A stretch of DNA of 64,000 nt from the NCBI RefSeq assembly GCF_964340395.1, contig NC_135555.1, positions 25,362,725 through 25,426,724 of the forward strand. Reading direction: 5' to 3'. Positions 10,285 through 63,322 of this stretch are shown in pieces. The translations under genes were made by a program, and so were the position numbers. The notes under the pieces were generated by a model. That model searched no databases. It saw only the letters and a list, made by a program, of their open reading frames with translations, and was not told where the DNA came from. Numbering within the stretch: position 1 is the stretch's first letter; each line of letters begins with the position of its first letter. Source of the stretch: Glandiceps talaboti. Its lineage: Eukaryota > Hemichordata > Enteropneusta > Spengelidae.

Positions 10285-10472
10285 TTAGATGAGATCACAC
10301 CTCCTATAAAAGAGTAGATACGGAACCTTTGGTGGAGCGGGTCTTAGTATACTGGTGATGGTGACTGCTTTCACATTGTTGTCATCGGTACGGATCCAAC
10401 CATTGATACCAGGATGGTAGAAATCACATGTATAGTGACCTCCACTGGCATTCTTTCCATGGTGGTATACAA
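10285..10472 (-). CDS. USP10: USP10 exon 15, catalytic His box and stop
   Basis: The exon reads [20 protein letters not shown] and then [14 protein letters not shown], and ends [11 protein letters not shown] and TAA. It matches human [34 protein letters not shown] and YLLYYRRVDLL. The His in GGHYT and the acidic residue in RTDD are catalytic by homology. The acceptor is ttatag. The ending has the same length as in human, so the gene is not truncated. Confidence 0.95.
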
Positions 10473-16400: not shown

Positions 16401-19400
16401 AACTGTCAATCATATGTAGGTATGCTGACTACGGAATGTAATAAACTGTCAATCATATGTACGCCTACAGTCTACGGAATTAATATCATCAGGTAAAGGG
16501 CTATGTTCCAGATCTGAAACTGGTTGTCTCACACTCTCAGTTTGCAGGAATGTCACAATAATATGATCCCTTTTCATACCTACATTTTAATCCTAATCCA
16601 AAGAGTGGCTTTAACATTTCAATCAAAATGTGACATCAATTTCAAACTTCTACACCTTTTGCAAATTTCACTGTGTATATGTAAAGCTCATAGAAATAAT
16701 GTTAGCTGGAAGTTCAATACCACAGTTTTCCAACACTTCTAGTAACTGTTATTCCTATGGTCTTCAAATGCGTGTACATTGAATGTATCATAACATGATG
16801 TTTTCATCTATGCCTTTCAAGGCTGTAACAGGAAAAACAGTTGGGTGGCTTAGAACTACACAAATCTTTGCCTTGTGTAGCTGACTGTACAGTAAAGAAA
16901 GCAATACATATACTTTTCAGAAGAGATATTTTAGATGTACGGTGATAAACTAAGTATAAGTTTGGTACTTACTGGCAAACAACTTATAAGATGTACGATG
17001 ATAAACTAAGTATAAGTTTGGTACTTACTGGCAAACAACTTGTAAGATGTACGATGATAAACTAAGTATAAGTTTGGTACTTACTGGCAAACAACTTATA
17101 AGATGTACGGTGATAAACTAAGTATAAGTTTGGTACTTACTGGCAAACAACTTGTAAGATGTACGATGATAAACTAAGTATAAGTTTGGTACTTACTGGC
17201 AAACAACTTATAAGATGTACGGTGATAAACTAAGTATAAGTTTGGTACTTACTAGCAAACAACTTATAAGATGTACGATGATAAACTAAGTATAAGTTTG
17301 GTACTTACTGGCAAACAACTTGTAAGATCGTTGAGTCATACTTAGTTTGGACTTCACCACCGAGGACAATAATTCTACAAGACAAACAACAAATTATGTT
17401 TAGTACTTACAACAATAAAGAGTGCCAATGGCACTGTAGCACAACTGCACAGTTGGGAAGGAATTAGGGTGAAGCAATTTTATTGAGTCTCATTGTGTTC
17501 TAAGTGTAAGCAGTTTTTGATGTGTGGACTGTAAATATCGCAGTTCGTGTTCATCGTGGTTACAGGTGTGTACGGACTATAAATATCGCAATTCATGTTC
17601 ATTGTGGTTACAGGTGTGTATGGACTGTAAATATCGCAATTCATGTTCATTATGGTTACAGGTGTGTATGGCCTGTAAATATCGCAATTCATGTTCATTG
17701 TGGTTACAAGTGTGTATGGACTGTAAATATTGCAATTCATGTTCATTGTGGTTACAAGTGTGTATGGACTGTAAATATCGCAATTCATGTTCATTGTGGT
17801 TACAAGTGTGTATGGACTGTAAATATCGCAATTCATGTTCATTATGGTTACAGGTGTGTATGGACTGTAAATATCGCAATTCATGTTCATTGTGGTTACA
17901 AGTGTGTATGGACTGTAAATATTGCAATTCATGTTCATTGTGGTTACAGGTGTGTATGGACTGTAAATATTGCAATTCATGTTCATTATGGTTACAGGTG
18001 TGTATGGACTGTAAATATCGCAATGCATGTTCATTGTGGTTACAGGTGTGTATGGACTGTAAATATTGCAATTCATGTTCATTGTGGTTACAGGGGTATA
18101 TTTATATCATAATAGAGCCTCCCACTATTACTTACATGTATCAATTTCTCAGTAGGTGGTTTCTATGCTAATTATCAACTTCAAAAGGTATGAGAGGCTG
18201 GTAATAGTGAATGAATGTAGTTGAATGTAGTGGAGTGACAGATTCAGTCAGTAGACAGGCCATAGTGAATGAGTGTAGTGGAATCACAGATTCAGTCAGT
18301 AGACAGGCTATAGTGAATGAGTGTAGTGGAATCACAGATTCAGTCAGTAGACAGGCTATAGTGAATGAGTGTAGTGGAATCACAGATTCAGTCAGTAGAC
18401 AGGCCATAGTGAATGAGTGTAGTGGAGTGACAGATTCAGTCAGTAGACAGGCTATAGTGAATGAGTGTAGTGGAATGACAGATTTAGTCAGTAGACAGGC
18501 TATAGTGAATGAGTGTAGTGGAGTGACAGATTCAGTCAGTAGACAGGCTATAGTGAATGAGTGTAGTGGAATGACAGATTTAGTCAGTAGACAGGCCATA
18601 GTGAATGAGTGTAGTGGAGTGACAGATTCAGTCAGTGGACAGGCTATAGTGAATGAGTGTAGTGGAATCACAGATTTAGTCAGTAGACAGGCTATAGTGA
18701 ATGAGTGTAGTGGAATCACAGATTCAGTCAGTAGACAGGCTATAGTGAATGAGTGTAGTAGAGTTATAGATTTAGTCAGTAGACAGGCTATAGTGAATGA
18801 GTGTAGTAGAGTTATAGATTTAGTCAGTAGACAGGCTATAGTGAATGAGTGTAGTAAAGTCACAGATTTAGTCAGTAGACAGGCTATAGTGAATGAGTGC
18901 AGTGGAGTCACAGATTTAGTCAGTAGACAGGCTATAGTGAATGAGTGTAGTTGAATCACAGATTCAGTCAGTAGACAGGCTATAGTGAATGAGTGTAGTG
19001 GAGTGACAGATTTAGTCAGTAGACAGGCTATAGTGAATGAGTGTAGTGGAGTGACAGATTCAGTCAGTGGACAGGCTATTGTGAATGAGTGTAGTGGAGT
19101 GACAGATTCAGTCAGTAGACAGGCTATAGTGAATGAGTGTAGTAGAGTTATAGATTAGTCAGTAGACAGAGTATAGTGAATGAGTGTAGTGGAGTTACAG
19201 ATTCAGTCAGTAGACAGGCTATAGTGAATGAGTGTAGTGGAGTGACAGATTTAGTTAGTAGACAGGCTATAGTGAATGAGTGTAGTGGAGTCACATATTC
19301 AGTCAGTAGACAGGCTATAGTGAATGAGTGTAGTTGAATCACAGATTCAGTCAGTAGACAGGCTATAGTGAATGAGTGTAGTGGAATCACAGATTTAGTC

Positions 19401-22400
19401 AGTAGACAGGCTATAGTGAATGAGTGTAGTGGAGTCACAGATTCAGTCAGTAGACAGGCTATAGTGAATGAGTGTAGTGGAATCACAGATTCAGTCAGTG
19501 GACAGGCTATAGAATGAGTGTAGTGGAGTGACAGATTTAGTCAGTAGACAGGCTATAGTGAATGAGTGTAGTTGAATCACAGATTTAGTCAGTAGACAGG
19601 CTATAGTGAATGAGTGTAGTGGAGTGACAGATTCAGTCAGTAGACAGGCTATAGTGAATGAGTGTAGTGGAGTGACAGATTCAGTCAGTAGACAGGCTAT
19701 AGTGAATGAGTGTAGTGGAGTGACAGATTCAGTCAGTAGACAGGCTATAGTGAATGAGTGTAGTGGAGTGACAGATTTAGTCAGTAGACAGGCTATAGTG
19801 AATGAGTGTAGTTGAATCACAGATTCAGTCAGTAGACAGGCTATAGTGAATGAGTGCAGTGGAGTGACAGATTTAGTCAGTAGACAGGCTATAGTGAATG
19901 AGTGTAGTGGAGTCACAGATTCAGTCAGTAGACAGGCTATAGTGAATGAGTGTAGTGGAGTCACAGATTCAGTCAGTAGACAGGCTATAGTGAATGAGTG
20001 TAGTGGAGTGACAGATTTAGTCAGTAGACAGGCTATAGTGAATGAGTGTAGTGGAGTGACAGATTCAGTCAGTGGACAGGCTATAGTGAATGAGTGTAGT
20101 GGAATCACAGATTCAGTCAGTGGACAGGCTATAGTGAATGAGTGTAGTGGAGTGACAGATTCAGTCAGTAGACAGGCTATAGTGAATGAGTGTAGTGGAG
20201 TGACAGATTTAGTCAGTAGACAGGCTATAGTGAATGGGTGTAGTGGAGTGACAGATTCAGTCAGTGGACAGGCTATAGTGAATGAGTGTAGTGGAATCAC
20301 AGATTCAGTCAGTGGACAGGCTATAGTGAATGAGTGTAGTGGAATCACAGATTCAGTTAGTAGACAGGCTATAGTGAATGAGTGTAGTGGAGTGACAGAT
20401 TCAGTCAGTGGACAGGCTATTGTGAATGAGTTTAGTGGAGTGACAGATTTAGTTAGTAGACAGGCTATAGTGAATGAGTGTAGTGGAGTGACAGATTTAG
20501 TCAGTAGACAGGCTATAGCGAATGAATGGAGTCACAGATTTAGTCAGTAGACAGGCTATAGCGAATGAATGGAGTCACAGATTTAGTCAGTAGACAGGCT
20601 ATAGAATGAGTGTAGTGGAGTCACAGATTTAGTCAGTGGACAGGCTATAGAATGAGTGTAGTGGAGTCACAGATTTAGTCAGTAGACAGGCTATAGAATG
20701 AGTGTAGTGGAGTCACAGATTCAGTCAGTAGACAGGCCATAGTGAATGAGTGTAGTGGAGTCATAGATTCAGTCAGTAGACAGGCTATACTGAATGAGTG
20801 TAGTGGAGTCATAGATTCAGTCTGTAGACAGGCTATAGTGAATGAGTGTAGTGGAGTGACAGATTCAGTCAGTAGACAGGCTATAGAATGAGTGTAGTGG
20901 AGTCACAGATTCAGTCAGTAGACAGGCCATAGTGAATGAGTGTAGTGGAGTGACAGATTCAGTCAGTGGACAGGCTATAGTGAATGAGTGTAGTGGAGTG
21001 ACAGATTCAGTCAGTAGACAGGCTATAGCGAATGAGTGTAGTGGAGTGACAGATTCAGTCAGTAGACAGGCTATAGTGAATGAGTGTAGTGGAGTGACAG
21101 ATTCAGTCAGTGGACAGGCTATAGTGAATGAGTGTAGTGGAGTGACAGATTCAGTCAGTAGACAGGCTATAGTGAATGAGTGTAGTGGAGTGACAGATTC
21201 AGTCAGTGGACAGGCTATAGTGAATGAGTGTAGTGGAGTGACAGATTCAGTCAGTGGACAGGCTATAGTGAATGAGTGTAGTGGAGTGACAGATTCAGTC
21301 AGTGGACAGGCTATAGTGAATGAGTGTAGTGGAGTCACAGATTTAGTCAGTAGACAGACTATAGTGAATGAGTGTAGTGGAGTGACAGATTCAGTCAGTA
21401 GACAGGCTATAGAATGAGTGTAGTGGAGTCACAGATTCAGTCAGTAGACAGGCTATAGCGAATGAATGGAGTTTAGTCAGTAGACAGGCTATAGAATGAG
21501 TGTAGTGGAGTGACAGATTCAGTCAGTAGACAGGCTATAGAATGAGTGTAGTGGAGTGACAGATTCAGTCAGTAGACAGGCTATAGTGAATGAGTAGTGT
21601 CCAACCCCACACAGGATTCAGTAATACCTTTATATGGTAACCTACCTTTGCTGATTTCCAAATCCACATTATATTCAATTTTCTTCTGAAGTTTCTGGCA
21701 TCCACCACTCTTGTCATACACAAATCTCTTTAAATGGAGCACTAACACTGGTGGCAGAACTTCTAGTGTGATCCTTCGGAAAGTTTCAACCTAACAATGA
21801 TGAAAGAAAGAAAACAACAATGAAGTGCATGACAAAGTAGTCTTGCTGCTCATGCTCCCTTGAGGCAGTGCCCTGCATATAGGCCTGAGTTAAACAGTGA
21901 ATTATGAATTAAACACTTAATTCACATCCTAATTCTGTACCACACTTAATTCACATCCTAATTCCATACCACACTTAATTCACATCCTAATTCCATACCA
22001 CACTTAATTCACATCCTAATTCCATACCACACTTAATTCACATCCTAATTCCGTACCACACTTAATTCACATCCTAATTCTGTACCACACTTAATTCACA
22101 TCCTAATTCCATACCACACTTAATTCACATCCTAATTCCATACCACACTTAATTCACATCCTAATTCCGTACCACACTTAATTCACATCCTAATTCCGTA
22201 CCACACTTAATTCACATCCTAATTCCGTACCACACTTAATTCACATCCTAATTCCGTACCACACTTAATTCACATCCTAATTCTGTACCACACTTAATTC
22301 ACATCCTAATTCTGTACCACACTTAATTCACATCCTAATTCCATACCACACTTAATTCACATCCTAATTCTGTACCACACTTAATTCACATCCTAATTCT

Positions 22401-25400
22401 GTACCACACTTAATTCACATCCTAATTCTGTACCACACTTAATTCACATCCTAATTCCATACCACACTTAATTCACATCCTAATTCCATACCACACTTAA
22501 TTCACATCCTAATTCCATACCACACTTAATTCACATCCTAATTCCATACCACACTTAATTCACATCCTAATTCCATACCACACTTAATTCACATCCTAAT
22601 TCCATACCACACTTAATTCACATCCTAATTCCATACTACACTTAATTCACATCCTAATTCTGTACCACACTTAATTCACATCCTAATTCCATACCACACT
22701 TAATTCACATCCTAATTCCATACCACACTTAATTCACATCCTAATTCTGTACCACACTTAATTCACATCCTAATTCCATACCACACTTAATTCACATCCT
22801 AATTCCATACCACACTTAATTCACATCCTAATTCCATACCACACTTAATTCACATCCTAATTCCATACCACACTTAATTCACATCCTAATTCCATACTAC
22901 ACTTAATTCACATCCTAATTCCATACCACACTTAATTCACATCCTAATTCTGTACCACACTTAATTCACATCCTAATTCCGTACCACACTTAATTCACAT
23001 CCTAATTCTGTACCACACTTAATTCACATCCTATGTAATGATTTGTCAATACATAGTCACATAACACTGATCACTTTTACACTGTTATTCTGAAAGTGAC
23101 ATCAATTAAGAATGCTTGAAATGGTGCCTGTATAGATAAACTAATGACTGATAATGTCAAATACATATGCATAGATGTTTTAAACAGTAGACAAATATGG
23201 TATCTACAGATGTATAGATGTTAGTTTTGAAACTCTAGGATTTTTGCAACCCTTGTCTTGAAAATAGCATGAAATGGCATTAAAGCACAACTGTATTTGA
23301 CTGTTGCTATGGGCGTGGTCTTGTTGCTAGGCCTATTTGCATACATTTTTTGAATCTTTATTGAATTACCTACCCATCCCTGTTATGTAAAATGCATCAT
23401 CATTTCACTGTTGCTAAGGGTCATCGTTGATAGGACCAATTGTGTCAAAATGTTTTCAATAACAAATCATTGAGAATGATATAGTCCCCGCTATAATTGG
23501 GTTTTAAGGAATTATCACTACTCTGATCACGCAACAACATTTGTGAACCTAAAACAAACAGACTTAGATATGTTGTGTGTGCTTGTTGGGCATGGAATAT
23601 GCCTCCAACAATAAAGGATTGGTTGGGTATGGGGGATCATATCACGATGAAAATGGAGTCTGAGTTATGGCTTTGGACATGGAAAATTCACAAACAAAAT
23701 GGCTGCCAGGCAGCCATATTGGATCGTATCACGACGAAAATGGATATGCACATGTATGTCATAGAACGCTGTCCTAATACCAACTTTGAATGAGATCTGT
23801 TCAAGCATGTCTTAGTAATGGCTTTGGACATGGAAAATTCACAAACAAAATGGCTGCCAGGCAGCCATATTGGATCGTATCACGACGAAAATGGATATGC
23901 ACATGTATGTCATAGAACACTGTCCTAATACCAACTTTGAATGAGATCTGTTTAAGCATGTCTGAGTTATGGCTTTGGACATGGAAAATTCACAAACAAA
24001 ATGGCTGCCAGGCAGCCATATTGGATTGTATCACGACGAAAATGGATATGCACATGTATGTCATAGAACACTGTCCTAATACCAACTTTAAATGAGATCT
24101 GTTCAAGCATGTCATGGCTTTGGACATGAAAATTCGCAAACAACATGGCTGCCAGGCAGCCATATTGGATCGTATCATGACGAAAATGGATATGCACATG
24201 TATGTCATAGAACACTGTGCTAATACCAACTTTGAATGAGATCTGTTTAAGCATGTCTGAGTTATGGCTTTGGACATGAAAATTCGCAAACAAAATGGCT
24301 ACCAGGCAGCCATATTGGATCATATCACAATGAAAATGGATATGCACATGTATGTCATAGAACACTGTCCTAATACCAACTTTGAATGAGATCTGTTCAA
24401 GCATGTCTGAGTTATGGCTTTGGACATGAAAATTCACAAACAAAATGGCTGCTAGGCGGCCATATTGGATCGTATCATGACAACAATGAATATGCACATG
24501 TATGTCATAGAACACTGTCCTAATACCAACTTTGAATGAGATCTGTTCAAGCATGTCTGAGTTATGGCTTTAGACAGGGAAAATTCGCAAACAAAATGGT
24601 TGCTAGGCGGCCATATTGGATCGTATCATAAAACAAATTGACGTGCATATGTATGCCATAGCATGTTGCTCCTGTACCAAGTTTGAAAAAAATCGGTCCA
24701 GGCATCTCCAAGAAACGGCTGCGGGCGGACGGACGGAACCCAATCCATAAGTCCCCGTTCCGGACTTCGTCCGCGAGGACTAATAACTGCAGAGTAATAC
24801 TGCCAGAAACATACCCACAAAGTTTCAATCCCATTCACCATGCAGTTATTTTTGTTTTTTTACCAAACTTGAGATTTTTTGACATAATTTGTATATTGCT
24901 GATGGGATCACAACATTGTGAATACCTTCATCTACACATCCCCAGATATGTATCCCCGATTACATTTCAGCTCAATCTGCTCAGTAGTTTTGGAATTATA
25001 GATTTTTGACCAAAATGAAACACTTTAGCCCTAATTTGCATATCACTGATGGGATCACCATGTCATGAACAATTCTTAATATAAACATCCTGAAGAACGT
25101 TCCAACCAAATTTCAGCCTAATCCGCTCAACGGTTTTGGAATGAAAGATTTTTTACCCAAAAAGACAAACTGTTACACCTAATTTGCATATCAATGATGG
25201 GATCATCATGTTATGAACAATTCTTAATCTAAACACTCCTAAGAACATTTCCACCAAATTTCAGACTGATCTGACCAAAATCACATTTTTTAAAACCCAA
25301 ATCAAACACTTGTTGAAAATCATTTTGATCTGAACAATTTCCCAACTAGACACCCAAGGTAATACATCCACCAAATATCATGGCAATCGGTCCAGCAATA

Positions 25401-25452: not shown

Positions 25453-28400
25453 CACACTCCTACACACACCCCTATACACACACACACACACACACACATC
25501 CACATCCACAGACAGACACTTTGCCATGCCTATAGCACTACTAAACCTTATCAGTTCAGATGTGCTAAAAGGGACTTGGTAAAGACACATTTGACAATTA
25601 TTAAAAGAAGTAAGGTTTTGCAGATTCCTGTGTTGTTCCATGGACAACTTACACTGTTTTCATACGACATCCCTAGGGAACTGTACCGAATAGGTGGATC
25701 TGAAATGAATATGCATGTACCCTAGATGTTTTAGGCCAGACATACAATGCAGGAAATGTGTTACACCAAACACATTGTCTGATCGTACTCATGTAAAACC
25801 ATACATCAGTTTCCCTTGGACCTGTGGATCACACAAATACAGACTGTTTACCTTAAACTCCGCAATGACATCACAGTCTCTCCAAAGTAGACACTTGATG
25901 TTGCCCTTGTGATAAGTCAACACGCACACAATCAAAGTTTATTATTCCATTTGAAGCCTGTCTGGAGATGATGACTTACCTCTGTCTTGGTCTTTGGACT
26001 GGTATAATCATGAAGAGTTTCACGACTTACAAGTGACTGTAGGGCATCCTTCACTGACCATATCTTATCAGACTAAGAAAGGCAACAAAAACGCAATAGT
26101 GATATAATTATATCCATGCGGGGTGGTGTGGGTGTGGGAGGGTGAAATTAAGTTTGTGGTTGCCATGGTCATTTTAAATGATTGCTAGAGATTTCTAAAA
26201 TTAGTTACCTGAAATTATACTATAAGTTATTTTGACCCCAACTCCCATGTTAACCATTAGTTACCAGGGTTACATGTTCTTTTAGCCACCCACTGTGATA
26301 GGCAGGAATTGGCTGGAATTTGATAACTGACCCCGAAGGTCAAAGGTCAAGGTCTCCAAAGATAGCTTGTATATGAGAATATGGGATAGACACTTGTATG
26401 GAGAGTCTGTGCATTACAGTTTTTGAGTTATGCAGTAAATGTTGGTTTTTAACTACAAATATGGCCGCCATTTGCTCAAATTTGCATATATAAAAAAAAC
26501 AAATATGTCCCACATGATATGCCATCTTTGTGTCAGAATTGAAAGAAATCAGATATTGCATGTATGAGAATGATGTACAATGGATGGATACCTGAATGCA
26601 CAGATGTATGGACAGAGTCCATTGTAAAAGCACCTCATAAACACAAACTGACGTGCATATGCACAGGACATTATTTGATGTTTACTGAAAGTTTGGTTGG
26701 AATTGGCCCATGCGTATTTGAGATAGACGTGGACATGGACAGACATCTTTGCCGTTTTGGCTAATAAACTTGTTGTTGATTTGTGATTGTTGCATTTTTG
26801 TACAACAGATATTTCACATTATGGCTTGTCGCCATAGCAACACAACAAATTACACCTTTTACTTCAACATTAATTGAGAAAATACTTGACTCACCTGAAT
26901 GTCCAGCTGTAGAGTAAAGAATGGCTGAAGTGTTGCCGACTCTTTAGAGCCATGTTGATGTAAAGCTGATCTCATCTGTCCTCCAAATATGTCAGATATC
27001 AAAGACTGAGTGAAGTTGGCCTATAACATTGATCAGATATTAAAGACTGAGTGAAGTTGGCCTACGACAATAACATTGATATCAAAGACTGAGTGAAGTT
27101 GGCCTACGACAATAACATTGATATCAAAGACTGAGTGAAGTTGGCCTACGACAATAACATTGATATCAAAGACTGAGTGAAGTTGGCCTATGACAATAAC
27201 AATGATATCAAAGATGGAGTGAAGTTGGCCTACGACAATAACAATGATATCAAAGACTGAGTGAAGTTGGCCTACGACAATAACAATGATATCAAAGACC
27301 GAGTGAAGTTGGCCTACGACAATAACAATGATATCAAAGATGGAGTGAAGTTGGCCTATAACAATAACAATGATATCAAAGGCCAAGTGAAGTTGGCCTA
27401 TGACAATAACAATGATATCAAAGACTGAGTGAAGTTGGCCTACGACAATAACAATGATATCAAAGATGGAGTGAAGTTGGCCTACGACAATAACAATGAT
27501 ATCAAAGACTGAGTGAAGTTGGCCTACGACAATAACAATGATATCAAAGACTGAGTGAAGTTGGCCTACGACAATAACATTGATATCAAAGGCCGAGTGA
27601 AGTTGGCCTACGACAATAACAATGATATCAAAGATGGAGTGAAGTTGGCCTATAACAATAACAATGATATCAAAGACTGAGTGAAGTTGGCCTACAACAA
27701 TAACAATATCAAAGACTGAGTGAAGTTGGCCTACGACAATAACAATGATATCAAAGATGGAGTGAAGTTGGCCTATAACAATAACAATGATATCAAAGAC
27801 TGAGTGAAGTTGCCCTACGACAATAACAATGATATCAAAGACTGAGTGAAGTTGGCCTATGACAATAACAATGATATCAAAGACTGAGTGAAGTTGGCCT
27901 ACAACAATAACAATGATATCAAAGACTGAGTGAAGTTGGCCTATAACAATAACAATGATATCAAAGACTGAGTGAAGTTGGCCTACAACAATAACATTGA
28001 TATCAAAGACTGAGTGAAGTTGGCCTACGACAATAACATTGATATCAAAGACTGAGTGAAGTTGGCCTATGACAATAACAATGATATCAAAGACTGAGTG
28101 AAGTTGCCCTACGACAATAACAATGATATCAAAGACTGAGTGAAGTTGGCCTATGACAATAACAATGATATCAAAGACTGAGTGAAGTTGGCCTATGACA
28201 ATAACAATGATATCAAAGACTGAGTGAAGTTGCCCTACGACAATAACAATGATATCAAAGACTGAGTGAAGTTGGCCTATGACAATAACAATGATATCAA
28301 AGACTGAGTGAAGTTGGCCTATGACAATAACAATGATATCAAAGACTGAGTGAAGTTGGCCTATGACAATAACAATGATATCAAAGACTGGGTGAAGTTG

Positions 28401-31400
28401 GCCTACAACAATAACAATGATATCAAAGACTGAGTGAAGTTGCCCTATGACAATAACAATGATATCAAAGACTGAGTGAAGTTGGCCTACAACAATAACA
28501 ATGATATCAAAGACTGAGTGAAGTTGGATTTAACCACACCTACAAGACTACTGCATCTTAGTTCAGTTGGGCTATAAAATAAATGTCAAGGTTTGGTTGC
28601 TTACACTTCTTGTAATGCTACTTTTATTCTTAGGTCCTACTTGTTCCCACTCTTCATCATTATCATCTTCATCTTCATCAACAGTTGATGATACCACCAC
28701 TCCATCTGATGGTCCATTGGAGTTTTGAAGGGATGGACCATTCATATTATTGGGTTCTAAAATCAAAAAGAGTGAAGGCACTGTGTGAGTACAGTACAAC
28801 TCTGATTATCCGAGCCTCTCCGGGATTACTGAACCTTAGTACAGTTGTGCTGAAAACACTACAAGCTCATGAAAACTTGTTTTGCATCATTCTTTTACTG
28901 TTTATTTGTATAAAGTACATGTATGGTCAGCAAAAATATACAACATACTACAACTATTTTCTTAAATTAATTTGTTCTAGAGATATTACTATATTACTAG
29001 CAATAACCATGCATTTCTCTTCTAGAGATACATGTATTACTAGAGTTATTACCAGCAATAACTATGTATTTCCCTTATTACTAGCAATAACTATGTATTT
29101 CCCTTATTACTAGCAATAACTATGTATTTCCCTTATTACCAGCAATAACTATGTATTTCCCTTATTACTAGCAATAACTATGTACTTCCCTTATTACTAG
29201 CAATAACTATGTATTTCCCTTATTACTAGCAATAACTATGTACTTCCCTTATTACTAGCAATAACTATGTATTTCCCTTATTACTAGCAATAACTATGTA
29301 TTTCCCTTATTACCAGCAATAACTATGTATTTCCCTTATTACTAGCAATAACTATGTACTTCCCTTATTACTAGCAATAACTATGTACTGTGAACCGGAA
29401 AATTATTGCGCAGTCTTATTTTCACGCTTTGGGAGATCACGGTGATTACGCGCAGTTTAATTTTCGCGCAAGGCCGTCAGTGGATTTTTTGTGTGAACAT
29501 AAACAATACGTTGAGCTGAGAACAATGAAATTTGACACTGATTGATGGGCAGTATTGCTCTGTCGGCATCCGTCAGTTGCAGTGCTCTATTGTTTCCAAC
29601 TGCGAAGATACTGTGACACGTTGACTTGTGACAAATGTAGGTGTTAATTTGTTCAATTATGTACTAAACAAGTTACCAGATCACACAATACGAAAGTCGG
29701 GTAGCTCACAGCCTCAAAGCAGGAGCCGTCAACACACATGCGTCAATATGGTACAGTCACACGTTTGGTGAAACACTAATCAAATCACGTCATTGTCTCT
29801 GTTTTGCGTCTTTTTGGAATGAAGTTCAAAAGGTCACGTTGGTTACATTTTGATACTCAGTATCCGAAGTCACAGAGAATGATCCGATTGCTACACGTTA
29901 CTTACAATACTGTATATGATAAGTGACACAAAACAACAGCCGGTGCCTCTGATGTCGGTTGACGGAAAGCTTTATGACTTAGTTTATATCTGTCATGTTC
30001 TAAAATAAACTCCCACGGTGTTCTAGGACTGTTCATGCTGTCAACGTGACTTCCTTTATTGCTGATAACATTAGATAAGATTGTACAAGACGCACCATAG
30101 CACATACCATTTCTCCGTAGGGTTGGTCTTTGAATTTTGAAATGTTACATCTTAATGTTGGTGAAATGAAACCGAGTGGTGTGTATTTTTGATTATGGAA
30201 TGTTTAGTCTATTACAAAATAATTGGCAAGAAATAGCATTTATTACTTAGATACACGTACATTAGTGTTATCAATGCCCACACAACACACAGCCAAAATG
30301 GAATGAGCGATGGGAAGAGAGATACTGTTAACTTACGTATACTGACAGCAAACTAAGGCCCGTACACCACACACGTGTTTGTACAGTCACATAATGTGTC
30401 GACCAGAATTGAAGTCATCTTTTTGCAAATCAGAGGTAGCAAAGATGTCGGAATTACATGTACCAAGCGAGGACAACAGTATATGATTTGGTATAGCATG
30501 TTTACAGAAGGCATTGTTTACCCTTGCATGCCGATGGGAAAGCCAAAGTCAATTATCTACATGTCGAGGTCAACGAAAACATCGATGCGTGCCTCATCAA
30601 AACAAACAACGGTTCTACAAAACGGAAGCGAGGGTCTTATCAGCAGTACTCCTCTGAGATTCTTTCCAAAATTGGAAATAAAGATTCATAATTCTTTGTA
30701 AAACTTCGTTGCAAATACTTTATTGGGTGTTGTCTGAAAACTCGTGTGTCAGTGTGTTTGCGTGTACCGTGTGTGGTTGTATACGGAGTGATTGTAACAA
30801 AAAAGAAAGAAGTTAAATACTTGCCGCATGGGGGCGCACACAAGTACATCCGCGCAGTTTTAATTTCGCGGTCACGGTCGAGCGCGAAATTGCGCGAAAT
30901 TAAAAATGCGCGAATAATTACCCGGAGTACAGTATTTCCCTTATTACTAGCAATAACTACGTATTTCCCTTATTACTAGCAATAACTATGTATTTTCCTT
31001 CTGGTGAATGCAAAGTGGAAAGTAGTGTTTCCTGATGTATTCTAACAATAAATAGTTATCATACTACCATCATCAATAACTGGAAATATTTAGTTTGAAG
31101 TGTATGAATCATTTCACCAGACAATCCCCTCCATCTCCCTCTAATTGTTTGCACTTAGTCTGTTATATAGAAACAATTATAAGCAGTGTGTGAACTTCAG
31201 GGAAAATGACTACTGGTCATAAGGACCGACATGTAGCAAATGCTACTGGTCCTTAAGGAAAACTGCTGGTCCATACTCAATGCAGTTCACATTCACAACC
31301 TGTATCTACATCACGACACCCCCCCCCCCCTCCACTTACAGATCAAATGATTTTGAACTTTAATATGATACAACATATCTTTTGATATCTAAAGTAAAAG

Positions 31401-34400
31401 ATAGTACAACAAATTGTTTACTATCCACTTTTATTTCATCAATCTGTTCTTACAATTGAAACTTTCCACTCACAGAGTCAAAAAATTACTTGGAAGCAAA
31501 TTTTGGATTCGCAACCAAGTAATTTTTGACTTTGTGAGTAGAGATTTTCATTTGTAAATATGAACCCAGAGACTATGAATATTCATTCTCGCATAATCTG
31601 TTCCTATAGATTATGGTCTTAGACTGAATGTATTCATTCCGGGCCATAGAAGTACAGATACATAGATTGTAGATAATATGGGTGAATGAATCAATAAATC
31701 TACATTGCATGTATCTGCAATCTCTAAGAGATCACAGTCCTCTCCTTCCTCACTCTACGATTCACTAAATTCTGAATCACATAATCCAAAGTCAGATTCA
31801 TCATCTGTGGCAACAGCTGATGTAGCTTTCCATCTCTTAGTGAACGTACACCAACAAATTCATCATAGCAGAAAGTTTTGTCAGATAACTATCCCTCTTG
31901 AAAACTATGTATTTGTTTAATTTCAATTTCCATCCACACAGTGACACGGAGCAGTTTCGTCTTCTTTCAATGTTTACAAAAATGTACTGAATTGTTGTCA
32001 TGTTAGTTCTTGTCAATACACATCTATGTAGGGATTGCAGAGGTTGAATGAAGGTCAAAGACAAGATCATTTAAGTTTCAAGTACCCTACATCATATATG
32101 ATTAAAATACTATAACTCAATTTGACATACTTGTTTCTTCTTTACTACTGTTGACATATCGTGTACAGGACAACATTTCTTCATGTAAACCATTGAGTAT
32201 AAACCCAAGGAATTCCTCGGCATCTTCTTGTCTTCCCTATACAGAGAATACAGACAAATAAATAAGAATTACAGAGGACTTCTCAACGATGACGGATCTT
32301 TTCATAAACATTTGTGAGAATAGGTTTATGTTAAAATGTACAAGTGACCTTCCTGTTGAGATAGCCACAAATTAAAGTGCATGATCTTATTCATATGAAA
32401 GTATTCCTATCCTCTTTTCTCAAAGATACAAGTGTAAGCTTACCCGTATGGACATGCTTGATTTCAGCATAGTCAACAGATTGTAGATATAAGTGGGTTC
32501 AAACGGTGCTCCTGGACGTAAATCTTGTGCAGTTCTCTTGCCGCCTGTTATACAATAGAAACAATATCAAAATATTAGGTATAAAACTTGTACACTACAA
32601 CCCATACTATATTTACAATTTCAATCAGTTAGTTAGCTTTGTGTAGCTAGTTATCTCAATGAGTTAGTTAGCTTTGTGTAGCTCACTATCTCAATGAGTT
32701 AGTTAGCTTTGTGTAGCTAGTTAAGTCAATGAGTTAGTTAGCTTTGTGTAGCTAGTTATCTCAATGAGTTAGTTAGCTTTGTGTAGCTAGTTATCTCAAT
32801 GAGTTAGTTAGCTTTGTGTAGCTAGTTAACTCAATGAGTTAGTTAGCTTTGTGCAGATAGTTATCCCAATGAGTTAGTTAGCTTTGTGTAGCTAGTTATC
32901 TCAATGAGTTAGTTAGCTTTGTGTAGCTAGTTAACTCAATGAGTTAGTTAGCTTTGTGTAGCTCACTATCTCAATGAGTTAGTTAGCTTCGACCAAGACA
33001 GATCAAGAGCTCAATGCTAGAAACTTTGAACTGCTTGTGTATTATATAACCTTTGTAAATCAGTCTTGGTCATATACAAATGTACATGTATATGTAGTCT
33101 TGGTGGTGATGTCTAGTATTCCCTGATGTAATGTCTTCATACCAAGAACCTAGCTATTTGAACCAAGCTCACATATACTTTAAATATTCATCATGTACAT
33201 GTATTATATTTTCACACCAATTCAAGCAAGGGTCAATACTAGCATATATATTTGTAAAACTAAGATTGCAAGTAAATAAAACAACACATGCATGCTGGTA
33301 TGGGGGGGTTGGGGGTTGTATACCACCCCATCCATTTGTACACCACCACCCCTCTTAGTTTTCCCATTCCACAAACGACAAACAAAACTTCAATCGTTGT
33401 GTTGACTAATAGAATGACAACAATAATATTACTTACCAGGTTTAGGTGGCATTGGCAGAAATTCATTGACAAATTCCCCTCTGAAATGAAATAATAGAAT
33501 AAATTGTGTTTACTTGATTTTTTTCAACAAAAGGAACAGGTTTTAGTATGTACAGTATCATCAGACAATAGTTACCGATGGTGACTTTTTAATGAATGAC
33601 AAACTCGTACATCTGTAATACTAGTTTTTTTTTTCGTTCGGGGCAGTAGTCGGGGGGGGGCAGTTGTCCGGGGGCAGTTGTCCTTCGGGGGCAATTGTCC
33701 TTCGGGGGCAATTGTCCGGGGGCAATTGTCCGGGGGGCAGTTGTCCTGTTACCATATCCCCCATCAAATACCAAGCCAATTAGTTTCAAATTGGCCGTCA
33801 AACTTCCCAGACTCACATCAGGGCCGCCATACATGTATTGCATATCAATGGAAAGCTCTAGAATAACACTAAACCATCAGACTAAGCATATCGCCTTCAA
33901 CAATATAGTATAACGATGACATGGTCCTGAACGCGAATGGAACTTTGTGTTGTCCACAGATGCAAAAATTACGGTCACTAATTTGCATATATATTAGCAT
34001 ATTAATTTGCATAAATGTGCAAGCAGTATATTATGCACTAGCTACTCAAATGATCCAGCACATTATACTTTACTTGTAGAATTATAATAACCTGGCCTGG
34101 GCTAATAGCCTGGCCTAGTCTACTCATAGCATGGCCTGGCAACTTATAGCATGGCCTAGTCTACTCATAGCATGGCCTGGGCTACACATAGCATGGCCTG
34201 GGCTACTCATAGCATGGCCTAGTCTACTCATAGCCTGGCCTAGTCTACTCATAGCCTGGCCTAGTCTACTCATACATGTAGCCTGGCCTAGTCTACTCAT
34301 ACATGTAGCCTGGCCTAGTCTACTCATAGCCTGGCCTGGGCTACTCATAGCATAGCCTAGTGTACTCATAGCCTAGCCTGGGCTACTCATAGCATAGCCT

Positions 34401-37400
34401 AGTCTACTCATAGCCTGGCCTAGTCTACTCATAGCCTAGCCTAGTCTACTCATAGCATAGCCTAGTCTATTCATAGCATAGCCTGGACTACTTATAGCCT
34501 GGCCTAGTCTACTCATAGCCTGGCCTGGCTACTTATAGCCTGGCCTAGTCTACCCATACATGTAGCCTGGCCTAGTCTACTCATAGCATGGCCTGGGCTA
34601 CTCATAGCATAGCCTAGTCTACTCATAGCATGGCCTGGGCTACTCATAGCCTAGCCTAGTCTACTCATAGCATAGCCTAGTCTACTCATAGCCTAGCCTG
34701 GGCTACTCATAGCATGGCCTAGTCTACTCATAGCATAGCCTAGTCTACTCATAGCCTAGCCTGGGCTACTCATAGCATAGCCTAGTCTACTCATAGCCTA
34801 GCCTGGGCTACTTATAGCCTGGCCTAGTCTACTCATACATGTAGCCTGACCTAGTCTACTCATAGCATAGCCTAGTCTACTCATAGCATAGCCTGGGCTA
34901 CTCATAGCATAGCCTAGTCTACTCATAGCTTAGCCTGGGCTACTCATAGCATAGCCTAGTCTACTCATAGCTTAGCCTGGGCTACTCATAGCATAGCCTA
35001 GTCTACTCATAGCTTAGCCTGGACTACTTATAGCATGGCCTGGGCTACTCATAGCATGGCCTGGCTACTTCTTGCCTGGCCTGGCTACTTATAGCCTGGC
35101 CTAGTCTACTTATAGCTTGGCCTAGTCTACTCATAGCATAGCCTGGGCTACTCATAGCCTAGCCTGGGCTACTCATAGCCTGGCCTGGCTACTTATAGCC
35201 TGGCCTAGTCTACTCACAGCATGGCCTGGGCTATTCATAGCATGGCCTAGTCTACTCATAGCAGGGCCTGGGCTATTTATAGCATGGCCTGGGCTACTCA
35301 TAACATGGCCTGGACTACTCATAACAGGGCCTGGGGTACACGTACTCAGAGCCTGGCCTGGGCTATTCATAGCATGGCCTGGGCTACTCATACCAGGGCC
35401 TGGGCTACTCATAATCATAGCAAATACTTACAAACTATCCATCATTGGAGTTGAACTTTGACCTCGTCTGGACAGTGGTGTAACTGGTAGTGATTTCAGT
35501 AAATTGTATAGTGGTGGGCATGCCAACAATGCCTGTAAAATCTGTAAGTCACTGATTAAGGAATTTACTGAGGAAAAAAGACATTCAATATAAAACTTGA
35601 ACTACTTGTGCTGGCATGGGAGCCCCACATGTAAGCTATCTTATAATTTACAGTTCTCAAACAGGGCTGGGAACTGCCTCATGCAATGGTGAGATTTTAT
35701 GTTCACAGAAAGAAGGTTTTCAAAATGAGTGTTTCAAATGTTTTTTTGAAGTGGCACAATGCTTGCAGCCAAACCTGTTTTCTGTTTACTAAGAATTCAA
35801 TAAACTGTTACGTTTATGAATGTTGTCAACCATACTAGATCAGTTGCCTGAAGAACTGTCCAAGACAGAATGTAAAGTGTTGCCACTAAAAATACCTGCC
35901 AAGTCCAGCACAATAGATTGTAATAACTCCATTATCAATGACATATTCTTTGCCAGAAAAGTTGGAGACAAACAGTCCCTCTATCACCAGTCTGGAAATG
36001 CGCATTGTTAAAAGACGTGAATGACGTCAATATGTATTAGTTTTTGAGTTATACAGAAATTATTGACTTAGAAATCCAAATATGGCCGCCATTTGGTCAA
36101 ATTAGCATATTCGCAAAACAAAGCGATGGCTTTATGTACCATGTCGGGGTCAAAGTCAGCATGTTGCTTTGTAAATGCTTTGTGGGAATATGTTATAAGT
36201 GTGGCTGGGGACTGACCAGGGTTAACCCTATATACGTATGTCCACTACTAAAGGATACTGCATTAACATAGCACCAGTTTCCTACATTGTTTAACCCTCT
36301 TGGCTGAAATGCCAGTGCACGGTATGGAAACTTGACAGTGAGTAAGAACTCTGAAAAATAAACAAATAAGGAGGATATTAGTTGTATTGTATATCAGCAA
36401 ACAGCATTTTATCTACCATTATAAAGAACATCATTAATTCTGTGAAATATGGTAACATTTTTGTGTTTCAGTATAGTTTTTCCATCACGTCCTGGTGAAA
36501 TTAGCCTGACAGACACAACACAAACCATAATTCCTATAGCCCTATTAAAACTACAGATACAGGCACACAAACCATAATTCCTATAGCCCTATTAAAACTA
36601 CAGATACAGGCACACAAACCATAATTCCTATAGCCCTATTAAAACTACAGATACAGGCACACAAACCATAATTCCTATAGCTCTATTAAAACTACAGATA
36701 CAGGCACACAAACCATAATTCCTATAGCCCTATTAAAACTACAGATACAGGCACACAAACCATAATTCCTATAGCCCTATTAAAACTACAGATACAGGCA
36801 CACAAACCATAATTCCTATAGCCCTATTAAAACTACAGATACAGGCACACAAACCATAATTCCTATAGCCCTATTAAAACTACAGATACAGGCACACAAA
36901 CCATAATTCCTATAGCCCTATTAAAACTACAGATACAGGCACACAAACCATAATTCCTATAGCCCTATTAAAACTACAGATACAGGCACACAAACCATAA
37001 TTCCTATAGCTCTATTAAAACTACAGATACAGGCACACAAACCATAATTCCTATAGCCTATCAAACTTTTTCCAACATGGCTAGGGCTAGTAACAATTAA
37101 ATACCTAATGCTAATGCTGAAACTAGGGTGAAACATGCATAATTTGCATTTAGTTTTTCATATTGACAGGAGTAGCTCCACATATTTATTGGTTTGATTT
37201 ACAACATGTAGGTCCCACAAACAACAAGAAATCTTCCTTTCTGTCATGGTTTGGTCATTGAGTTTTAAGGGAGTTGCACAGGCTAGGACGTCAGTTAAAA
37301 TTCTCAATAAAAATATGTAAATTCCATTCAATAAATGTATATATACATAGTAATGTAGTTCAATGAGATCACTTAGATTCTATTGAGTACTGTACTATAT

Positions 37401-51102: not shown

Positions 51103-51363
51103 ATGATAGTTTCTAGACTGATCAAACTCTTCAGACATTACATCAAGAAAGGTATACCACTGAAACCTCACTGTATAAGCATGGCTGAATCAAGTCCAAC
51201 TGAACCTGTGTCAAGTCCAACTGAACCTGTGTCAAGTCCAACTGAACCTGGGTCAAGTCCTACTGAACCTGGGTCAAGTCCTACTGGTGGAGCTGAAAAA
51301 AGATCTGCTGATAGTACATCAAATGATGCACTAATAGTAAACAAGAAATTGAAAACAGATAAG
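51103..51363 (+). CDS. PUS1: PUS1 exon 1: possible mitochondrial presequence and SSPTEPx coding repeat
   Basis: ATG at 51103 gives [20 protein letters not shown], a basic, amphipathic, acid-free start that looks like a mitochondrial targeting peptide. A second in-frame ATG at 51181 begins MAESSPTEP. Mammalian PUS1 makes mitochondrial and nuclear forms from alternative starts, so both may be used here. Residues after the second Met hold four SSPTEPV/G units (21-bp coding minisatellite, 51190-51285), then a basic KRSADS...NKKLKTDK stretch that could be a nuclear signal. The donor is gtacaa. An upstream noncoding exon is possible, because an acceptor-like cag lies at 51084-51086. Confidence 0.75.
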
Positions 51364-54300
51364 GTACAAGTTATATTAGTTTTCAGTTTTCACTTATATT
51401 ACAATGGCCAGACTCAGTTTGATGAGTAAAAGAACATTATTAGATGCTTTGATCTTATCTTAATAAACAAGAACTTCCTCAGCAATATGAGACATAATTA
51501 TCATATTGTCTTGTTTACAAATTTGACAAGATTCAAAACCAATGTTTTGCACAATATTTAAACCTGTGTAAAATTGACCACTAATTACACAGGTACAATG
51601 TCTTTTTAGTCCCCTTTTTAGGGGACTTGAATTGCATGTTGGGTTCTGTCCGTGCGTCCATCCATCCATGCTTGCATTCACCTTCATATCTCTGGCATGC
51701 ACCAACTGATTTCAACCAAACCTGAACATAGTATGTGAGAGATGTGTACTCTACTTTGTTTAATGGCCAAATGACAGCCAAATTTCACAATATGCATCAT
51801 AACTTTGGAGGTACATGTATACTACGTAGTGACTCCATACAAGTGCATACACCCATATTATCAAATATGAGCTTTCTTTTAAGACCTTTGACCTTGAATG
51901 TTTTTTCAAGGTCAAAGCCAAATTTGGGTTAACTTCATACCTTTTTGAATCAAATATTTCAAGTGATGAGGATATTTTTATCATTACTTGCTGTTTACCT
52001 TCCATATTAGGAAGGTTATGTATAAGGGGTGAAAAGTCTGTATGTGTGTGTGTATTTGTCTGTCTGTGTGTCTGTATCACCATTTTCTAAAAAAACGGTT
52101 AGCTCAATTCAAACAAATTTGGGTTAACTTCATACCTTTTTGAATCAAATATTTCAAGTGATGAGGATATTTTTATCATTACTTGCTGTTTACCTTCCAT
52201 ATTAGGAAGGTTATGTATAAGGGGTGAAAAGTCTGTGTGTGTGTGTGTGTATTTGTCTGTCTGTGTGTCTGTATCACCATTTTCTAAAAAACGATTAGCT
52301 CAATTCAAACAAAATTTGGTACATATGTTCTGTAGGGTAATGGTAAGAACTGATTAGCGTTTGGTAAACATGCCATGAATATTAATGAACAATTTGTGTA
52401 ATTAATGGTTTTCGGTAATTCGGCTATATCTCAAGAATGCACGCTTCAAATTCAATATAATGTGGTACATACATTTGCGATACCTAAGCACATCTGTCCT
52501 GAAAATATTATCAATGTAGCTTTTAGTTTTAATATAATATTGGCATATTTTTGGTAATTCGACATGTAGGCCACAAAAAAGAAAGTTGTTGTTTCTGGTC
52601 AGAATACGTTGTCTAAAGTAGTGTGATGATGCGAATTTTTTTTTAATTGTTGATTTGTTCTGCAGATGTCTTCCTGAAGGAGCAATTGATGTAGGGAGAG
52701 TTATTTTGTGTTTTCCCTTGGATCTGCAGTCTACATGTACATTGGCTTGACAAACACGAGTAAAAAAAAGATCGAAGCAGAGTATTTAAGTGATGCAAAA
52801 TGACCAGAAACAATTCTTTTTTTTTCTTGGCTTTAAAAACTCCCACCGTGAGATCTGTGCTCCAACGTTCTTTAAAAGCTTCACATTATTACATGTTGTG
52901 GTTGGTCGTAAGATCGCATCTGTAGGCAATCATGCTGGATAATTCGCCCACATAACTTCATACAATCTCTTCACTATTTCAAAATTGAAAATCTCGTTTT
53001 TACTTCATTCGATACTCTGCTACTGCAGCTTGCTCATCATGTACCTAAATGTATACCTCAAATATCTTTTATTTCATAATGACAAGACTCCAGCAGACAT
53101 GGCAGATGCGAAACAGATCAGAATTCCTAAAAGAAAAGTTGCTATATTACTTTCTTACAGTGGAAAAGGTTACATGGGAATGCAAAGGTATGTGAACATT
53201 TTGTACACATCATGTAATCTACCAGAGCTTTTGCTAAGGGTGGTAAGCAGGTAAATTCTGCCTGAGTTCCCCTGTCTACCAATGTTCTTGTTAAGGGCAG
53301 TAAGTAGGTAAAATCTGCCTGAGTTGCCCTGTCTACCAATGTTCTTGTTAAGGGTGGTAAGTAGGTAAGATCTGCCTGAGTTCCCCTGTCTACTAATGTT
53401 CTTGTTAAGGGTGATAATTAGGTAAAATCTGCCTGAGTTCCCCTGTCTACCAATGTTCTTGTTAAGGGCAGTAAGTAGGTAAAATCTGCCTGAGTTGCCC
53501 TGTCTACCAATGTTCTTGTTAAGGGCAGTAAGTAGGTAAAATCTCCCTCTGTTCCCAAGTCATATTACCAGCCTGAGAGTTCCTACTGTGTTCTTGTTAT
53601 GGGTCATAAGTAGGTAAAATCTACCTGATTTCCCCTGTCATTTTATAGGGGAAATAGCCAAATTTTGTTGTCGTGGGTCAAAATGAGACATTTCTTGTGC
53701 ATCACCACATAGTGAGAGATAGGGGAACACCAAATCTTGGTGTGTCACTAGAAATTGTGTGCATCACGGGCTCAACAAATTGGCTTAAGTTGTCCCTACC
53801 AATGTTCTTGTTGTGGATGGTAAGTAGATAAAATCTACATGAGTTCCCCAGTCAATTTACTGGTGTTCTCCACCACAATTATGATAGTGTATTAGAAACC
53901 ACAAATTGTGACCTGATTTCAACTTGGTATATTTACTACAGAAACAAAGGCGTACGAACCATTGAAGAAGACCTGTTATCAGCCCTTGTAGCAATTGGAG
54001 CCATCCCACAGGATCATGCTAATACGCCACAGAAAATGCAGTTCCAACGATGTGCCAGAACAGATAAGGGAGTGTCAGCAGCTAGACAAATTGTCTCCTT
54101 GAAAATGTTATTAATAGAAAATGGTGTTGAAAAAATAAACCATCACTTACCACCAGCTATCAGAGTCATCAGTGAGTAGAACTTATGTCACATAATTTGT
54201 ATTTTAAGAATCAAACAGTAGATATGTCAAGTCAGATTTCAGAATCTATTAGTTGAATTTGTTGTAGGCATGTATAGATTCAATTGGAAAGTGCACTTTT

Positions 54301-62779: not shown

Positions 62780-63322
62780 TAGTCCCCACGGACGAAGTCC
62801 GGAACGGGGACTTATGGATTGGGTTCCGTCTGTCCCTCCGTCCGTCCGTGCATCCGTCCGTCCGTCCGTCCGTCCGTCCGTCCGCAGCTGTTTCTTGGAG
62901 ATGCCTGAACCGATTTTTTTCAAACTTGGTACAGGGGCAACATACTATGGCATACATATGCACGTCAATTTGTTTAATGATACGATCCAATATGGCTGCC
63001 TAGCAACCATTTTGTTTGCGAATTTTCCCTGTCTAAAGCCATAACTCAGACATGCTTGAACAGATCTCATTCAAAGTTGGTATTAGGACAGTGTTCTATG
63101 ACATACATGTGTATATCCATTTTCGTCGTTATACGATCCAATATGGCTGCCTGGCAGCCATTTTGTTTGTGAATTTTCCATGTCCAAAGCCATAACTCAG
63201 ACATGCTTAAACAGATCTCATTCAAAGTTGGTATTAGGACAGTGTTCTATGACATACATGTGCATATCCATTTTCGTTGTGATACGATCCAATATGGCTG
63301 CCTGGCAGCCATTTTGTTTGCA
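62780..63322 (+). mobile_element. Hairpin-headed element, plus copy with at least two 150-bp units
   Basis: Head AGTCCCCACGGACGAAGTCC followed by GGAACGGGGACT forms a hairpin. A (TCCG)n run at 62832-62884 follows, then cttggagatgcctgaaccga and 150-bp units with the catattgg...ggcagccat pattern, as in 23560-24785 (reverse). It breaks off abruptly at 63322 in unrelated sequence. Confidence 0.6.

Follow-up and report, generated by a model that had tools for sequence, protein, structure and literature searches.

How is a single 3′ splice site chosen when dozens of its copies stand in line immediately upstream? The question is raised by a 64,000-nucleotide (nt) stretch of the genome of the hemichordate Glandiceps talaboti (contig NC_135555.1, positions 25,362,725 to 25,426,724; hereafter the window, numbered from its first base), where a USP10 gene lies on the minus strand and the intron ahead of its exon 11 houses a 42-bp minisatellite that repeats the exon's own acceptor. 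The array is a genuine mirage minisatellite, a striking member of a kind already described. Its decoy acceptors are no weaker than the true one, and the choice of acceptor is probably positional, made via exon definition.

The gene was modelled as 12 stop-free minus-strand exons that cover most of USP10 and are joined by GT-AG at 11/11 introns. Its modelled catalytic part (406 residues) shares 100% identity with the Glandiceps talaboti NCBI protein, 84% with Ptychodera flava and 79% with Saccoglossus kowalevskii, with domains assigned from the precomputed Pfam annotation of the protein-search matches. Two N-terminal USP10 exons lie at approximately 47097-47002 and 45940-45887, and the number of exon 11 is correct provided that the first six residues sit in a separate exon; no match came back when the disordered N-terminal exon was searched against proteins or exon 11 against PDB. 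The exons on which the argument turns are the following:

36259 to 36350, minus strand: exon encoding GNWCYVNA, which we take to be the Cys box (gene model).
28605 to 28756, minus strand: the exon preceding exon 11, with donor GTAAGC at 28604 (gene model).
26895 to 27020, minus strand: exon 11 (modelled exon 8 of 12), 126 nt, with its acceptor at 27021/27020 and donor GTGAGT at 26894 (gene model and NCBI protein).
10285 to 10472, minus strand: last exon, encoding GGHYTCDF, presumably the His box (gene model).

The introns flanking exon 11 measure 1584 and 822 nt, and intron 10 without its array would span only about 76 nt. The first-pass annotation of this DNA had placed the true junction at 27020, and both the stop-free 12-exon model and the Glandiceps protein bear it out, the latter reading ...SITRS|ANFTQ... 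as expected for exon 10 joined at that base.

Tandem Repeats Finder (TRF) reports the minisatellite at 26995-28527 with a period of 42, 36.6 copies and 93% matches. Cutting the minus strand unit by unit likewise yields a tandem repeat, as had been proposed, with 36 head-to-tail units running from 28528 down to 27021 and the true exon starting at 27020. Thirty-four units are 42 bp long, unit 20 is 39 bp and unit 36 is 41 bp; a typical unit consists of GCCAACTTCACTCAGTCTTTGATATC (exon part, 26 nt) followed by ATTGTTATTGTCATAG (intron part, 16 nt).

26996 to 28528, minus strand: 42-bp minisatellite reiterating the exon 11 acceptor in 36 units, followed by about 25 bases from the start of the true exon.
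27062 to 28528, minus strand: units 1-35, whose AGs form the 35 decoy acceptors; in 34 of these units the palindrome TGATATCA overlies the candidate branch site TTGAT.
27692 to 27730, minus strand: unit 20, 39 nt, besides unit 36 the sole unit without the palindrome; the exon start of its acceptor is 27691.
27021 to 27061, minus strand: unit 36, the boundary unit, 41 nt, lacking the TGATATCA palindrome and with a different 3′ half.

TAG closes 36/36 units, and of the 37 starts (the exon and 36 units) all but that of unit 1 are preceded by an AG, which leaves 35 decoys and one true acceptor where about 36 decoys had been counted. The true acceptor had further been described as the last of about 37 near-identical ones; it is indeed the last, but the unit in front of it is the divergent unit 36. 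Likewise, the units do contain the AG and 26 exon bases ascribed to them, but their T-rich stretch is only modest: of the 16 positions from -20 to -5, pyrimidines fill 10-11 in the decoys, 9 at the true site and a median of 12 in 43 other acceptors. Unit 36 carries TTAAT at -19 and CTGAT at -12 relative to the true AG, and the exon stretch it has in common with exon 11 (ATATCTGA) is longer than that shared by the other units; both its distinctness and this longer sharing are as expected if array ends escape homogenisation. Unit 1, at the other array end, departs only at its first base and at one shared variant, so that exclusion of the boundary unit from homogenisation is supported from one array end. 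Among the 34 units of 42 bp, 10/42 columns vary and 32/42 are invariant, giving 16 unit types in irregular order. NAGNAG tandem acceptors, whose competing AGs lie 3 nt apart and are resolved in the second step, form a different class, as the unit AGs here are spaced 39-42 nt. An extra AG at 28571 (minus strand), just outside the array (TTTATTTTATAG|CCCAACTGAACT), looks like the junction of a unit and may represent an outer copy that has decayed.

Minisatellites of this kind, which duplicate intron/exon boundaries with splicing said to be undisturbed, are known from amphioxus as mirages; the available text of PMC3087553 and PMC3902484 lists Adh3, the globins BflGb6 and BflGb9, TnC and PGBD5, and that of PMC3087553 has array-end units escaping homogenisation. 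Four of the six features of a mirage were found at USP10: the unit size of the array, a unit that spans the boundary, many copies of the splice signal, and a boundary unit excluded from homogenisation. The remaining two are undisturbed splicing at the authentic boundary and unstable length across haplotypes or cells, the sequence covered here being a single assembly. As far as those accounts go, amphioxus mirages and the USP10 array are alike in being boundary-spanning tandem repeats (at 3′ or 5′ sites) with splice signals in many copies and boundary units that are not homogenised; in amphioxus the authentic boundary is said to be used, and in USP10 the annotated protein carries the expected junction. 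They differ in host and scale: the hemichordate array counts 36 units of 42 bp, whereas the BflGb6 haplotypes are given 6 and 3 units of 150-160 bp, and, unlike the amphioxus cases, USP10 holds two mirages and the Glandiceps sample described below includes a 58-copy locus (L018). No hemichordate mirage was named in the titles or abstract openings of the literature surfaced by our searches.

What, then, distinguishes the acceptor at 27020 from its copies? Sites were scored with a matrix trained on 43 acceptors of the Glandiceps genome, 11 from USP10 and 32 from chaperonin genes, the latter chosen by rule near the edges of hidden Markov model matches, with at least one (L043) that looks mispicked. 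The decoys score 4.1-8.0 bits (median 6.6, the top one being 27691), and 35/35 of them outscore the true acceptor, which at 2.7 bits ranks in the 12th percentile of real sites. The ranking is nevertheless soft on bootstrapping: all 35 decoys stand above the true site in 745 of 1000 replicates with the full scoring window and in 606, 968 and 878 with three shorter windows; for the nearest decoy, the interval of its difference from the true site spans zero in all four. The notion that the true site is the strongest is thus unsupported, and the safe statement is that the decoys are no weaker than the true acceptor; strength is therefore unlikely to explain acceptor choice.

The starts of units 2-35, i.e. 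34 decoys, run in the exon frame into the unit-closing TAG, 33 of them at codon 14 and unit 20 at codon 13, and at the nearest decoy (27061, where unit 36 begins) 41 extra nt displace the frame, which is closed by a stop at codon 21. All 35 decoys are thus predicted to give a premature stop and a product without the His box. The earlier expectation that any upstream copy inserts a stop holds throughout, although the route proposed for it, a unit ending in TAG, applies to 34 of the decoys and gives way to a frameshift at unit 36. It is important to note that the stop arises by construction, because the unit is 14 codons long and ends in the acceptor's own TAG.

Our preferred reading, which we consider likely as a whole, is that of a mirage whose true copy is picked by exon definition and whose leak is near-neutral. 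The segment across the intron/exon 11 boundary would have been duplicated in tandem and then expanded within the intron, leaving dozens of intact acceptor copies upstream of the true one. The spliceosome would pick the copy joined to the real exon, the latter being recognised as a unit across its 126 nt together with the donor GTGAGT; leak would be low, and its stop-bearing products would be removed by nonsense-mediated decay, which would render the intronic expansion nearly neutral. In human genes, according to the available part of PMC9225289, exon definition favours the competing sites that lie nearest across the exon, and when a minigene offers two identical donors, only the one proximal to the exon is used. 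That rule and the USP10 array, as far as the partial account allows, share competing sites of similar strength and a choice by distance across the exon; the former rests on site pairs and minigenes, whereas USP10 presents dozens of natural competitors, known from sequence alone. Of the two options left by the first-pass annotation, strictly proximal acceptor choice is favoured, since 27020 is the start taken in the annotated protein and splicing at the amphioxus mirages is said, in the text available, to be normal.

Several points weigh against this reading. For 3′ sites, the same part of PMC9225289 gives the upstream preference as significantly reduced in the long-intron class, with no reversal stated there, and on that account 35 upstream competitors should leak. 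Donor mirages thus call for little explanation, acceptor mirages for more. Splicing at USP10 is, moreover, deduced from a protein whose own annotation may have been guided by homology. Finally, an early, short array in an intron of otherwise some 76 nt would have fallen under an intron-definition regime favouring the upstream, and hence wrong, acceptor, which leaves its survival unexplained. The array itself may have shifted intron 10 from intron to exon definition.

The exon 11 array is not the only one of its kind, contrary to the uniqueness implied by its first description. A second mirage lies further along the same gene:

17309 to 17374, minus strand: USP10 exon 14 (modelled exon 11 of 12), ending in YKLFA, with donor GTAAGT at 17308 (gene model).
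16933 to 17328, minus strand: second USP10 mirage, a 56-bp array of 7 copies of the exon 14 end and donor (TRF).

Here GTAAGT is kept in 7/7 copies and the true donor is the first of them. The array finds a parallel in human IFI6 (6-16), also an exon-edge minisatellite repeating a splice signal, which supplies multiple splice donors (Turri 1995, by its title; PMC4526556); according to the available text of PMC4526556, IFI6 yields three mRNAs by splicing from its downstream units, showing that copies can be used. In contrast to IFI6, one annotated product was found for USP10, and its main array repeats acceptors.

Beyond the window, we examined 49 of 75 genome matches to PF00443, in 20 regions picked for their matches before any array was inspected, and 39 of 63 matches to PF00118, of which 33 belong to five genes and 6 to one long gene taken with about 250 nt on each side. 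The five chaperonin genes were chosen for compactness, which biases that sample against arrays, and some domain matches contain stops and thus cover more than one exon. Junction-containing arrays accompany 5/49 USP-domain and 0/39 chaperonin-domain matches (5/88 in total), with the junctions read by eye from homology and GT-AG and a ten-base repeat touching chaperonin match L038 left uncounted:

L028, donor mirage: 42 bp, 11 copies.
L018, donor mirage: 64 bp, 58 copies, all with GTAAGT intact.
L025, acceptor mirage: 55 bp, 5 copies.
L027, acceptor mirage: 94 bp, 3 copies.
L026, acceptor mirage: 93 bp, 2 copies, the upper one without its AG.

Across the seven arrays 114/115 decoys retain their AG or GT, and mirages do not look rare in the Glandiceps genome. 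On contig C20, the USP-domain matches of L017 and L018 (1-3800, minus strand) sit amid tandem arrays; these fill 60% of L018 and 94% of L017, where two of them count 103 and 138 copies.

Is the coincidence of an array with a splice site itself surprising? The 25 arrays picked from 50 TRF rows cover 22,573 of the 64,000 bases of the window (35%), and tandem arrays occupy a mean of 16% of 20 other gene regions (L017-L036), a fraction that becomes 0.175 once eight loci lying on the exon 11 array are counted in; with such density, overlap with a splice site is to be expected. Only 2/30 splice edges lie under arrays, against a mean of 10.6 under circular shifts (0.7% of shifts give two or fewer), where 7 of the 30 are approximate tblastn ends, three from the N-terminal part of USP10 and four from a gene that we take to be PUS1-like. 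By this test the overlap does not exceed chance, whereas the array itself is far beyond chance. Splice edges thus hold fewer arrays than shifted placement gives, the pattern that purifying selection would leave by removing most such events. Several arrays end short of exons, at distances of 19 nt (donor at 35432), 43 nt (a PUS1-like donor) and 51 nt (donor at 21646). The first of these, a 61-copy array of 21 bp at window 34105-35413, faces the donor edge of the USP10 exon that ends at 35432 and starts 19 nt away from it. As for where the exon 11 array came from, its 29-base unit motif, searched with up to two mismatches, has at least 35 genome matches, all in the USP10 array, and the array therefore probably arose from the exon 11 boundary itself and was not moved in.

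Three other explanations turn on what the array does or whether it is real. The decoys could act as a dosage rheostat, diverting to stop-bearing products a transcript fraction set by array length and so tuning USP10. That every decoy yields a stop, and that the decoys are intact and at least as strong as the true site, would suit such a role, but the stop is built into the unit, similar arrays sit at unrelated exons, and the NCBI record bears no isoform label and gives one annotated product. Nor does the invariant TAG speak for selection on the decoys: with 32/42 columns invariant, three given columns would all be so with a chance of 0.43, and column conservation within the array gives no sign of selection to keep them. 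The regulatory reading thus has no positive evidence among our findings, and we consider it improbable. Tandem arrays are prone to misassembly, and the available text of PMC3087553 describes one mirage that came out wrongly assembled in a draft; an inflated copy number or a misplaced array is very unlikely here, however, given the irregular order of the 16 unit types that make up the 34 units of 42 bp, the distinct boundary unit, like arrays at other exons, and a contig that belongs to a 47-contig, 590-Mb assembly. We give next to no credence to the array as a coding or alternative exon: a 498-residue stop-free minus-strand frame does run through it, but that frame differs from the frame of exon 11, follows automatically from a unit divisible by three and stop-free in it, and is skipped by the NCBI protein.

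A more substantial rival, though still an unlikely one, holds that RNA structure rather than exon definition makes the choice: TGATATCA, a perfect 8-nt palindrome, would pair between units and bury the branch region of the decoys, while the boundary unit stays open. In local folding, the predicted unpaired fraction of positions -25 to -16 averages 0.17-0.19 in the decoys and is 0.48-0.65 at the true site, with 35/35 decoys less exposed than the true site under all four parameter sets used; dinucleotide shuffles of a 210-nt array stretch fold less well than the stretch itself (z -2.41, with 2/200 folding as well); and the most exposed decoy is 27691 (0.48; next 0.30), whose unit, unit 20, lacks the palindrome. 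Set against this, the units are near copies and so amount in effect to one or two comparisons, the branch sites are candidates found by pattern matching, and ordinary acceptors average 0.27-0.42 unpaired, with 7-20 of 42 falling below the decoy mean, so that burial is not decisive. Nor do the other mirages, folded with exact motifs that covered 45/57 L018 and 8/10 L028 decoys, give a clear contrast: it is absent from L025, L027 and the exon 14 donors of USP10, the L018 means are equal (true 0.30 vs. decoys 0.31, with 34/45 decoys under the true site), and in L028 it is slight (0.31 vs. 0.22, with 5/8 decoys under). Structure as a general rule for mirages is thus unsupported, and the palindrome is perhaps a rival or perhaps a helper of exon definition. 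More speculatively, and in our view doubtfully, the tandem copies might pair and silence one another as a self-masking decoy field in which the boundary unit alone is competent and array length or palindrome loss (as in unit 20, acceptor 27691) sets a graded leak; if true, a structural rheostat would have arisen from ordinary minisatellite turnover.

The preferred reading, a mirage resolved by exon definition, makes USP10 a natural test of splice-site choice, in that one gene offers 36 acceptor and 7 donor copies for a question usually studied in engineered minigenes. The genome sample (5/88) suggests that many more mirages exist, which would make the proximity rule testable at scale. An amphioxus oddity is now shown in Hemichordata, and minisatellite turnover can put stop-bearing decoys beside essential exons.

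Further repeats were noted in the window and in the sampled regions. A 57-bp array at window 53231-53556 follows a PUS1-like exon (plus strand), 43 nt beyond its donor; four of its units carry a sense-strand GTAAGT, one of which (53357) scores 12.2 against 9.4 for the real donor, and the units do not copy the exon. At window 51190-51286 a 21-bp repeat lies in a long open frame that reads SSPTEP[V/G] four to five times, possibly the start of the PUS1-like gene. A 151-bp tandem repeat family occurs at window 23658-24628 and 62978-63321 on opposite strands and is perhaps a dispersed element with internal repeats. The 22-nt element GTTGTGCTACARYGCCATTGGC precedes an acceptor by a short distance in each of two unrelated genes, at USP10 exon 14 (17445, minus strand) and in a chaperonin gene (L045:503, minus strand), and may be a dispersed repeat that ends near acceptors. 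Finally, L013 (C5:4273363) and L014 (C19:12857275), on different contigs, hold equal 2197-residue stop-free frames with a ubiquitin-hydrolase match, possibly a mobile element or a recent duplicate.

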